Both the position numbers and the translations under genes were made by a program. Positions 7,659-13,600 of a stretch of 64,000 nt of DNA are shown piece by piece (position 1 is the stretch's first letter; every line of letters starts with the position of its first letter). The notes beneath the pieces are model-generated. The model was not told where the DNA came from and made no database searches. It saw nothing but the letters and a program-made list of their open reading frames with translations. Source of the DNA: Ectocarpus siliculosus (lineage: Eukaryota; Sar; Phaeophyceae; Ectocarpales; Ectocarpaceae); NCBI GenBank assembly GCA_000310025.1, contig FN649741.1, positions 356,767 to 420,766 of the forward strand, given 5' to 3'.

Positions 7659-10600
7659 CGTACGTCGACCTGAGTTGTCGCCGTTCTTTTCGAGAGCCGG
7701 CACGCCACCGCCCTGTTGCCCTTGCACACGCAGACTGTTTTCCTCCGCAGCTGCGACCGCTGCTGCAGCCTCCAGTGTGCCTGTTTCCGCCCGCTGACCG
7801 TTTCCCCCGGCACCCTCTCTCTCCTCCCCCCCCTGCACGGCCCTCTCCTGCTCGCCGAGGGGCACGCCTAAGTCCCTCATTACAGCCTGCAGCCGGTCCT
7901 CTATCGGCTGCGCGTCTTCCTCCGACCGGGGGTGATCCTCCTCAAACAACAACCGCGCGACGGGAGGGCTTCCCCTACCTCCCTCGTGCTCCTGCCTCTC
8001 TGCCTCCACCCCCCGCTCCGCGCCAACACCGACTCCCCCCGAGTCAAGCTCGCGTCGTCTCCGCGACCCGCCTTCATCGGTGACAATCCTTCGGGTGTTG
8101 GGAGGATAAGCATCCTCCCGCATCGCGACGGCGATCCCCTCGTTCGCCGGTAGCGACACGCGGGAGGCGGCGCTGTCGCGGCCGCTGGTTCCAGACCACG
8201 TAGCCCGGCGAGGCCCCAGATCTCGTTCTGGTAGGAGGGAGTGGGCCCTTGGGCTACCGCCGGCGGTGGCGTTGTCGTTGGTGCGAGCTCTAGAACGGCC
8301 ACTTTTAGGAGAGAAGGATAGCTCTTGCGATGCAGGCACGGGTTGGGTCTGCGAGTGTTTTTATTGTTGGCAGAGTGTCACAAGAATTATGGTTCCAGAA
8401 GGGGGAACCGATTGCTGGATTTTTGGCGGCGAAGAAAGCTCGCGTGCCTGATACTGATATTTGCGAAGGGGAGAAAGCTTGAGTCGGACACCGATTGACA
8501 TTGAGCTTCGATTCCACCACGATTTTAATCCTGCACTCTACACAGGGATGGGTGTATGAGCAGATAACTAACAAGTAGGTACAGAAATAGGGGGGGGGTT
8601 GCAGCACGCGAGCAGCAAGCATCTCGTCGCGAGCGCACTGTTACAGCAAAAACTACCTATTTCTGCGAACGATGCTTGGCCCTTTGCACCTTGCTCACCT
8701 TCCCAAACGGAGATCGCTCACCTTCCCAAACGGAGATCGCTGGACCGAAGACGGTTTCCCGTTTTTCTTGGGGCTTTTCTTCTGGGGCGACCTAAACGAC
8801 GGCCGGCGGGTTGGTCTACCGCCACCCTTGGCACCACCGCCGTTGTCGCCGTTCTTGGGCGTGGCGGCGGCGGTGGCCTCGGCGTCGGCGTTGGCGTTGA
8901 TGGCGTCGACAAGCCGGCGAAGATTGCGTTCTTCCGGGCTGTCGGACACCGGTTCGGTCATCGTCCCACCGTATTCTACCGGGAGGAACTGCACAGCAGC
9001 GGGGTAGAGGGGGTTAGCTGGGTGTTACCAACCCGTGTATCACTGAGTTTCAGGAAAAACAAAAAACTACTACAGCAGTGGCACCGCTGTGGCGTGCCTA
9101 TTTCTCTTTCTCCGACTGAGCAAAAGGGGATCTTGCACGAGATCTTGGCGAAAGACGAGCGCGTCGAACGACGCGGTACATCTTGGCGGGCAAAGACAAA
9201 AATTAGCCCATTCCTTGCTGCCAGGCCGTCGCCCTGTGTGAGCCTCCATGACATCACTTTTCAATCAAATCGTGACTATTGTCCCGTCCCCCGTCCCATC
9301 CTCTGGACCCCCCCCCCGTCCCAACACCACAACAAAACTACCGGAGTCTCCCGCCCGCAGTCATGCGTCTCAACCGCCTGCTCCTGCTGCCACTGCTGCC
9401 ACTGCACGCCGCTCACCTGCGGAGCAATCTCGTCCTGCAGAGCGGAAAGGTCGGAGCCCAAGATGCGGATCTTCTGCCGCGTCCTAGCGCTGAGGAACGG
9501 AGACACCACACGGAACGAGAGTCCGAACCATGCCGGGGCGTTCACCACGAAGGTCTTGTGGCAGCGCTCCACGTAGTGAAGGCGAGCCAATTGGGCGACG
9601 GCCTTTACGTACTCCTGGATCTTTCCCGCCAAGGTCTGGGAAACCACCACCGACGATGGTAGAAGGGGAACGAAAATTGGGGGCGAGAAAAAGCCTCCCT
9701 GTGCAGCTACATGTTGGCGTTGGCGATCTCTACCTCTCGCAGCTTTGCAAAGGTAGTGCTTGCTCGGCAAATACGAAGATACAAGACACAAGAGGTAGAG
9801 CAAGCAGCCATCGGAGGCTCTATCCACGTGTAAAGCTCTGCAAGACCACCGAATCAAGTCCCCATTTTTCCACCGCCACATCTGCGACCGTTGGCGATCA
9901 AGCGCGAGAGATGCATTCTACTCTAGCACACGTGCGCCGTTGGAGATAGCACACGTCCTGCTCAACGGCAGACTGACCTGTATCCTGACGTCCTTCATGT
10001 CCTCGATGTTGATCTGTTGAGCCGAGTCCGTCGGCTGCAGCACGCGGTACATATACTCCGACACGAAAATCCAGTGCCTTCATCAGTTCATTCGGCAAAA
10101 CCAAACAACAACAAACACAGCATAGCATCGACAGCAATTGGCAAACGAGCCCATTTCACGTACTGCCACCTTGACGCGAGGACATGCTTGTTGCGCGCCT
10201 CCTAGACCAGATGAAACATTTCGCTAGCAAACAGCGCAAACACGTACTTTGCGAAAGGCACCAAACTCAGCGTTCGAGCACGCGTTGGCCTTGCCGCGAT
10301 GCGTGTGTCGCCACTTGGTGGAAATTACGCGAGAGAGAGCAGTTCGGCTCGCGAGAGGTGCAACTGCGGTTGTAACGGCACCATGGGTACGAACAGCCCA
10401 TGATGGTCGAAACGTCAACTACAAGGAAAGACGACTACTGCTGCGTATACGACCTGTCTTTCGACGCATGATACACTACAATACCAGAAGTATTGATTAC
10501 CGTAAGAGTCGGAGAGTTGGCACGGGCCGGAGAGATGGCACCGGGGTGCGATAAAAAAACCCGAGAAAAAAACATTTAATTCGATTTACGCAACGGGGTC

Positions 10601-13600
10601 GGTGAGATCGCACCCGGTGCGATCTCTCCGACCCCCAAATCCAAGATTGAACTCCTGTTCAGCTGAAGGAATGAGGTGCTTGTGCGTACCTTTTACACGT
10701 GGGGACGGAGTCAGCGGAGCGCCACTCCTTTACGTACGATTGGATGGTCGCGGTTCACGCGGGATGCCAGTTGTTTTCATATTTTTATTGATATGGAAGT
10801 TGCCAACCGTACACTCAACCAAACACACAAACGTACAAGCCGCACCCTACCCCACTTTACACAACCCGAAGCTATTGCACTTCTGCGTACGTACTGGTAT
10901 CCGTAGGAGAAGACCGAAACGAAAGCGGGAACCAATTGATACCGTGTGTACTGTGTACTGGTACCACCTCAGATGCGATATTTCGCCGTTTTTTCGGGGG
11001 TATGTTGTATGTGTATTTCGCCGCCTTTTTTCCGGCTCAGATACCGTATACGACACAAGATAACACACCCCCTGGACCAATTTCCAAAGCTCGATTGCGC
11101 CACGACGAAGAACATGCATAAACGAAACGACACATTTTCGGAAAGCTCTCGACAAGGGGACTTCAACGACGCCGTTTTCGGCGCTGTGCCTCGCTCTGCA
11201 GTCGAGAAATCGAGCTGTGAATATCGGTCCAGGGGGTGTGTTATCTTGTGTCGTATAAGGTATGCGTGTGTGTGCAGAAGACCGTGTGCGTGCGTGGGTA
11301 CCTACACTGGTACCAATCAATACTGTATGGCAACGGTCGGTGAGATGGCACCGGGGTGCGTGCATACAACACCTGTGTGCATTTCATCGGGGATCGCACC
11401 GGTCGGAGAGATCGCACCGGGGTGCCTTGAAAATTCTAAACGAAATGATTTAATTGAATTTCCGCACCGGGGTCGGAGAGATGGCACCGGTCGGAGAGAT
11501 GGCACCGGGGTGCGATAAAAAACCCGAGGAAAAAACATTTAAAAAAACGATCGCACCCGGTGCCAACTCTCCGACTCTTACGGTACCTGAGGAGCATTGG
11601 CACGGTCACCCCTAGCTTTCTCCGAAGTGTCCGCATATCTACACCTCCAAGCTTGTCGTACACCACAATGTGCCCCCCTCTGCTCCTTCCGCTCCTACAG
11701 GATACAAGAGCACCACAAGCAACGCAGCACGCACCGGCAAAGGGTGGGGTTGGCATTAGTGCAAAACGCGTTCCTGTTATTTTCCCATCGTCCCAACGCT
11801 TTTCCCCATCGCCCGCAGGAGCTCGTGTCCCGAAGCTTCCTCAAACGAATGCAGCTTCTGGGATCCACGTATTCTACCGCCGACACGATGTCATCATCAG
11901 TTGAATCCTGTCTTCTAGATAGTTTTTGTTTCTCTGTCCGGTCAATGCCAACCAACATTGTGTCATAGAGACAAAAACGAGTGAAGTGTAAAACACCAAA
12001 CACGAAAAGAAACACACGCAGAGGCAGTACTCATGATAACCCCGACGCAAAGCTGCCAAAAGCTTTCCTTCATACAAAGCTGCCAAAAGCTTTCCTTCAT
12101 ACAAAGCTGCCAAAAGCTTTCCTTCATACAAAGCTGCCAAAAGCTTTCCTTCATACAAAGCTGCCAAAAGTTTCCTTCATACAAAGCTGCCAACAGCTTT
12201 CCTTCACACAAGTGCAAGCCTCTTTGTACCTAACCCATGCAGCTCTCTGTAAGCATACCTGTGGCATGGCTTAACCCCATACACCATACACAGCAAGATG
12301 AGCACGACCACACCCAGCAGAGCACCTTCAAAAAACCCTGCAGCAGTAGACACAAAACCCGGTTGGCTCACATGTGACCCCATCCACCACACACAGCAAG
12401 ACGAGCACGACCACACCCAGCCGAGCACCTTCAAAAAATCCTGCAGCTGTAGACACAAAACCCGGTTGGCTCACATGTGACTCGGGAAGTAGCGTCGAAT
12501 ATCGTGGAAGAACTGTTGAGGCTCGTTGAGGATGGCGTCTATCTCGTTCTCCTTGCGCCACTTGAGGGTGGCTTTCCACCTCTCCAACGCGTGCTTCTCG
12601 TTGCCGCAGAACGCCCGCACGTAGCGAGCCGGTATCTTGTGTTCGAGCGCTAGGGGCGCGGCGGCGGCGCGGTCCATAGCCTCGGCAGCCTGTGTGGCGT
12701 TCCGTTCCGTGGATGGGGGGATGTGGTGTGAGGTGTTCCGTTCCGTGGATTGGGGGATGTGGTTTGAGGTGTTCCGTTCGGTTTGATGCGGGATGTGGTT
12801 TTGAGCCCTAGCGATGATGCTATCATAACTGCGAAGTGCCCAAAGCGAAACAGCAGCAGTAGTCCAACGCATGCCTTTGTGGAATCTGTGACAGAAGTCA
12901 TGTAGCGTATGCTACGAGGAGCGATGGCCCACGCTGCAGTCTTCTGGCCTTCCTATATTGCACAGCCAAAGCCTAAAAAAATCAGCGCCACGGGCAGCGG
13001 CCTCCACCGCTCTAGAGTCTGAGACGAAACGTACCAGAGCGATATGCTCAACACAGCCTCCATTGCATCGTCCAACCTACAAGCATTGTTCGTTGATGAT
13101 GGTTTTCCCATCTCTATCTACCGAGCCGTGCCCACCTCGATGACGTTCGCCCCTTCCGAATCCTTGTCCAACTGATGGGATGCGCTTCGGTGCAGCAAGC
13201 GCGGGTTGTGCACCCTACTCGCAGACGGCTCCAGGAGTTGCCGAAGGTATTCTCGGATAGCCCCGTAGATGCGTTGGTTCGCCACCACGATTGCCGAAAC
13301 CAAGGCCGACATCACGATGCAGAAAGCGAACACGTGGGGCGGCAGGCAGACCATGTTCTGAACACAGGGGAGCGGGGGCGCGCAGCAGCAAGGCAGAGTG
13401 GAAAACGTTATCAGCGCGCGGGGGGGGGGGGGAGGTATTGGTTGGGCTTACCGTAAGTCTGGTGTCTGGTAGGTAGTCTAACTAAAGGCGGTTTTTCCGC
13501 ATGGGAACGAACCTCTTTGGAACTCGATCGACCTTTTTGGGGGCATCTTTTTGACCCCCTTTCTGTTCGCCTCTATTAGCTGGCGAAGAATGGTACGGAG

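Follow-up and report, generated by a model that had tools for sequence, protein, structure and literature searches.

Can a DNA transposon enter the middle of a 5′ splice site and leave the gene spliced? The locus considered here raises two key questions: (i) whether the splice donor that a transposon has entered is still used; and (ii) whether its position at a donor is due to chance or to a property of the transposon family. The locus lies in Ectocarpus siliculosus (GenBank assembly GCA_000310025.1, contig FN649741.1, positions 356,767 to 420,766), in a stretch of 64,000 nucleotides that we call the window and whose numbering is used for all features of the locus. There, an element bounded by terminal inverted repeats (TIRs) adjoins exon 2 of a Sec14/CRAL-TRIO gene on the minus strand. 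It is a TA-flanked TIR transposon located at +2/+3 of a 5′ splice site that homology supports, with the GT kept; the GT of the donor is intact because the element duplicates the TA on insertion.

The explanation that we favour, and hold to be probable, is the chance insertion of a TA-targeting, non-autonomous TIR transposon of the miniature inverted-repeat transposable element (MITE) type into an existing donor, which was weakened and is most likely still used. Within this explanation, we infer the pre-insertion site, the chance nature of the event and the continued splicing.

The element and its insertion site

By direct reading, the element is 1,084 bp long and spans 10500-11583, with a TA at either side. 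The first-pass annotation had placed a DNA transposon at 10498..11590; a TIR element with TA copies is indeed present, whereas the element proper is confined to 10500-11583 and the TA copies to 10498-10499 and 11584-11585. An inverted-repeat search returned arms at 10498-10526 and 11557-11585, which are 29 nt long with the TA (27 nt without) and 97% complementary. On the minus strand, the exon side of the element reads ...CCAATGCTCCTCAG/G-TA-CCGTAAGAGTCGGAG..., the slash marking the splice junction, and its far end reads CTCTTACGG-TA-ATC, with the TA at 10499-10498. Intron 2 now starts G-TA-CCGTAAGAG, and the element begins three bases from exon 2. When the element and one TA are taken out, the exon/intron joint becomes CAG/GTAATC, as had been claimed, and this was presumably the donor before insertion. 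The earlier placement of the insertion at +2/+3, with a TA duplication that keeps the GT, also holds: the sequence can be read directly, and the boundary is backed by homology and frame.

Within the element there is in addition a 63-nt inverted repeat (87%) at 11041-11263, which appears as a long stem in the predicted fold.

The host gene

The five modelled exons join in phase to give one 307-codon frame (Table 1). They match the Pfam domain CRAL_TRIO (PF00650) at 3.6e-22, the domain by which a Sec14/CRAL-TRIO gene is recognized, and the modelled protein matches Sec14 structures at 1.7e-18. The alignment to yeast Sec14 is gapless across the exon 2/3 junction. Intron 2 ends at 10078 with the acceptor AAG/G and extends 420 nt past the element.

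Two further observations concern the gene. A tandem array of 27-bp repeats occupies 12021-12200 in intron 1, and a CRAL-TRIO relative is present elsewhere in the genome (L133, C1:3098103-3098438), with 32% identity, one TGA inside and an alignment that continues in one stretch over the sites of introns 1 and 2.

Table 1. Features of the host gene and of the inserted element, in window coordinates
Feature	Position	Strand	Remarks
Exon 1 as modelled	12475..12677	-	ATG at 12677; more upstream exons possible
Exon 2	11587..11694	-	CAG at end; phase 2
Intron 2	10078..11586	-	1,509 nt; 423 nt if the element and one TA are subtracted
Exon 3	9978..10077	-	opens G/CAC after AAG acceptor
Exon 4	9417..9635	-	
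Exon 5 as modelled	8695..8988	-	coding part, including stop codon
Non-autonomous TIR DNA transposon	10500..11583	.	1,084 bp; long form (most common form of the family, ~221 bp)
TIR, exon side	11557..11583	-	begins CCGTAAGAGTCGGAG
TIR, far side	10500..10526	+	
TA target duplication, exon-side copy	11584..11585	.	occupies +2/+3 of the 5′ splice site as it now stands
TA target duplication, far copy	10498..10499	.	next on the minus strand is ATC, the rest of the inferred GTAATC
Present 5′ splice site region, GTACCGTAAGA	11576..11586	-	inferred donor CAG/GTACCG at 11587/11586; alternative ACC/GTAAGA, intron from 11581

Consequences for splicing

In the explanation that we favour, intron 2 would already have had a CAG/GTAATC donor when the transposon, by chance, inserted at its TA, and the duplication of the TA would have left G-TA beside the exon and turned the donor into CAG/GTACCG. 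The exonic CAG and positions +1 to +3 would be unaltered, and one U1 pair (+4) would be lost. The weakened donor is most likely still used, with the entire element carried inside a longer intron, although some transcripts may be spliced at ACC/GTAAGA within the TIR or may remain unspliced.

The U1 duplex energies of the respective 9-mers are -8.1 kcal/mol for the inferred original donor, -7.1 for the present donor and -4.6 for the TIR-internal one; the donors that follow exons 1, 3 and 4 of the gene give -4.5, -7.5 and -11.1 kcal/mol. With a donor score matrix, the inferred original, present and TIR-internal donors score 3.8, 0.7 and 0.1, and the gene's other donors 3.2, 4.4 and 6.5. Use of ACC/GTAAGA, 5 nt on, would add five bases and put the frame out, as the first-pass annotation had foreseen, with a stop at codon 133. 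The description of this site there as a strong alternative donor is not borne out: among the three donors compared, it has both the weakest U1 duplex and the lowest score, its weakness stemming from CC in place of AG on the exonic side.

Several observations weigh against the favoured explanation; those on splicing are given here and those on chance with the family counts below. The present donor scores near the TIR-internal one and under the gene's other donors, and its GTACCG does not have the usual G at +5. In the predicted fold of a 1,151-nt stretch, in both the minimum free energy and the centroid structure, the present donor from +2 and the GTAAGA lie within the TIR duplex, which could block U1. 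Moreover, the boundary at 11587/11586 is set by homology and frame alone.

It is therefore conceivable that the insertion broke splicing. The donor, less strong than before and enclosed in a TIR hairpin, would then give way to intron retention or to the use of ACC/GTAAGA, and the allele would be null or knocked-down. The lost U1 pair, the fall in donor score, the pairing of the donor and the stop to which the alternative donor leads all point in this direction. We nevertheless consider a broken allele unlikely. The U1 duplex of the present donor is stronger than that of the exon 1 donor, and a fold of naked RNA tells little about co-transcriptional splicing. In addition, the five exons are still open and in phase although the element copy carries ~2.7% of private divergence; a tree built on ~342 nt from 15 copies gives the focal copy, labelled L131 there, a terminal branch of 2.7%. 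In simulations at 2.7%, an unconstrained 307-codon frame remained open in 43%, 9% and 2% of cases at indel:substitution ratios of 0, 0.1 and 0.2, respectively. The intact exon frames mildly favour continued function, in an argument for which the age is a rough estimate and the indel ratio an assumption.

The transposon family

The family was searched for in the 189-Mb genome (492 contigs). A 15-mer consisting of the TA and the terminus has 127 exact matches, compared with none for the reversed control, a number well above what chance would give. Of these, 121 distinct termini were read, the other six being unfetched or merged as duplicates. Sixty-six copies were paired at both ends, and seven more sites were added by eye to give 73 copies with two flanks; the additions came from 38 unpaired termini that were checked by eye, 11 of which gave the seven sites, while 27 were dropped.

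Among the 66 two-ended copies, 50 are at most 300 bp long, with 42 falling in the range 217-230 bp, and 16 measure 786-1,473 bp, the focal copy belonging to the long class. A TA lies precisely at both ends in 56 of the 66, a share that is somewhat biased, because the mate search included the TA (with 3 mismatches allowed). The family thus has the properties of MITEs, that is, TIRs, a short target duplication and many short copies without transposase. In those of the long copies that were read, no transposase of its own turned up, and the TA alone points to the IS630/Tc1/mariner (pogo) group as its putative superfamily.

One copy of 3,472 bp (C2:5659230-5662701) was considered as the autonomous partner and rejected, for its transposase part is a nested transposable element with TIRs of its own. 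Four frames in this copy have no Pfam match, and two of these match genes that carry DDE_1. The copy, which comprises L017, L069, L018 and L136, is a composite of a family member with other sequence and a nested pogo-like element. The latter has 27-bp perfect TIRs beginning TACAGTGGGGGC, unlike the TIRs of the family, and its transposase frames are broken; L140 is the same site without it. At another site (L078, C12:3458710-3459030), the TIR end is tandemly repeated with its flank, 40 bp apart. The flanks of L122 and L123, on C472, are nearly identical, and the two are therefore probably a single insertion that was duplicated together with its surroundings.

Insertion preference and splice donors

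Across the 121 termini the target consensus is R-A-N-TA-N-T-Y: position -3 is a purine in 97, and position -2 is A in 57 and G in 20. The same consensus is mirrored, more weakly, in the 66 two-ended copies. The focal site, AGG-TA-ATC, fits it in part. A donor of the form AG/GTA has G at -2, where the family favours A, and the preference therefore opposes donors. G precedes the TA in 39 of the 121 termini (42.8 expected), and AGG does so in 4 of the 121 exact termini (2.75 expected, P 0.30).

Empty sites were also scored for a donor at the same offset as at the focal locus, with a cut-off of 3.7 that just admits the focal site; several cut-offs were used, and the P values are uncorrected. At 3.7 or above there are 4 donor-like sites among the 73, where control TA sites predict 1.44 (P 0.056) and a target-weighted control 0.92 (P 0.014). 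This count was not blind, because seven sites were added after L042 had drawn attention; an earlier count on 66 copies found three against 1.3 expected (P 0.14). A looser way of finding mates (8 of 90 donor-like at 3.7 or above, P 0.0004) was rejected, as it had joined wrong ends, those of the focal copy included. With the focal copy left out and 6,600 controls, 3 of 72 remain at 3.7 (P 0.169 plain, 0.063 target-weighted), and at cut-offs looser than this P is at least 0.313 plain and at least 0.131 weighted, rising to 0.897. Stricter cut-offs provide the points against chance announced above: 3 of 72 sites reach 4.2 (P 0.047 plain, 0.016 target-weighted) and 2 of 72 reach 5.5 (P 0.024 and 0.010), and the empty sites of L041, L042 and L063 read AG/GTATGT, a strong donor motif at the focal offset. 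For the 65 other copies that had been paired before L042 was noticed, however, the lowest P over all cut-offs is 0.165 plain and 0.082 weighted. A wider scan for donors up to 9 bases from the target found 4 of 66 at a score of at least 4 (2.6 expected) and 2 of 66 at a score of at least 6 (0.32 expected, P 0.04).

In two of the three AG/GTATGT cases, the neighbouring gene is antisense to the donor motif (an aldo/keto reductase gene at L041 and an FAA hydrolase gene at L063); at L042, 4 of the 9 listed frames were scanned and none had a Pfam match. At L063 (1072-2277), a family copy of 226 bp lies between two stretches that match FAA_hydrolase, the second below the Pfam cut-off (21.9 of 23.9 bits), and by eye the copy is placed ~20 nt past an apparent donor.

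The counts bear on a further possibility, namely that the family is introner-like or donor-compatible, so that it favours or survives at donors, its TA keeping the GT and its terminus supplying GTAAG. The target-weighted excess, the three AG/GTATGT sites and the position of the L063 copy speak for this possibility; the preference for A at -2, the ordinary frequency of AGG before the TA, the copies paired before L042 and the antisense genes speak against it, and we think it very unlikely. An equally improbable form of the idea would be an incipient donor-compatible family, in which copies at AG/GTA donors are tolerated, since the junction and GT are kept and the TIR offers a back-up GTAAG, and in which they accumulate by selection rather than by targeting. 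A family tendency towards donors, as the first-pass annotation suggested, is not borne out by these numbers. The comparison of termini with control TA sites for which it had called was made here for donor motifs, on 121 of the 127 exact termini and on the 73 two-flank copies; the family's association with donors is a hint at most.

Intron creation and comparison with known systems

A family that makes introns could be expected to show this at its ends and flanks, but the evidence is negative. Of 132 element ends, only 5 contain an AG in their final 20 nt, and at 26 the target TA is followed by G, compared with a background of ~22%. When the flanks of 34 copies were joined and compared with 269 control TA sites, the median open span was 372 versus 432 nt (P 0.45), with no coding excess; the test is rough, having been made without annotation, and single cases could escape it. 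These 34 joined sites consequently give no sign that insertion into the exons of many genes has created introns.

Introner families carry target site duplications in 49 of 130 cases and TIRs in 72 of 177, and introners may take a splice site from the duplicated target (Gozashti et al. 2022, PMC9860276). As in introners, one terminus of the focal element coincides with a donor. Measured against the published description of introners, the element agrees at its 5′ end and fails at its 3′ end, because intron 2 runs 420 nt past it. Unlike an introner, the element is read as younger than its intron, and the family is without sign of exon intronization. The likeness to introners drawn in the first-pass annotation accordingly does not extend beyond the donor side, and the locus looks like a secondary insertion into an existing intron, in the sense of Gozashti et al. 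(PMC9860276). Among the papers searched, none pairs brown algae with introners.

Other systems offer partial parallels. In [D1,2] stwintrons (PMC12403724) the 5′ donor of an intron is likewise split by a sequence; there, however, the insert is a spliced intron between +1 and +2, whereas at the focal locus a transposon follows +3 and does not end in an acceptor. As in the introner elements of Amoebophrya (PMC7789003), inverted repeats could pair both ends of the insert, but the focal element touches only the 5′ boundary. The family resembles MITEs and TA-duplicating TIR transposons of the IS630/Tc1/mariner type, including pogo (PMC7325037), in its TIRs, flanking TA, mostly miniature copies and several size classes. 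It differs from them in that its cognate transposase was not found, the pogo-like remnant in the 3,472-bp copy being a nested element.

Significance of the locus

It is very improbable, finally, that the exon boundary is misplaced and that the element merely lies in an intron or in non-coding DNA near an exon, because, although homology and frame alone fix the position, the frame meets a TAA right after AGG in the inferred empty site, the phases match on both sides and the Sec14 alignment passes through the joint without a gap.

An association of the family with donors, if true genome-wide, would be a route to introners, and the family counts give at most a hint of it. The locus shows plainly how a transposon can land within a splice site and yet spare its GT, and it could serve for illustration as well as for tests.

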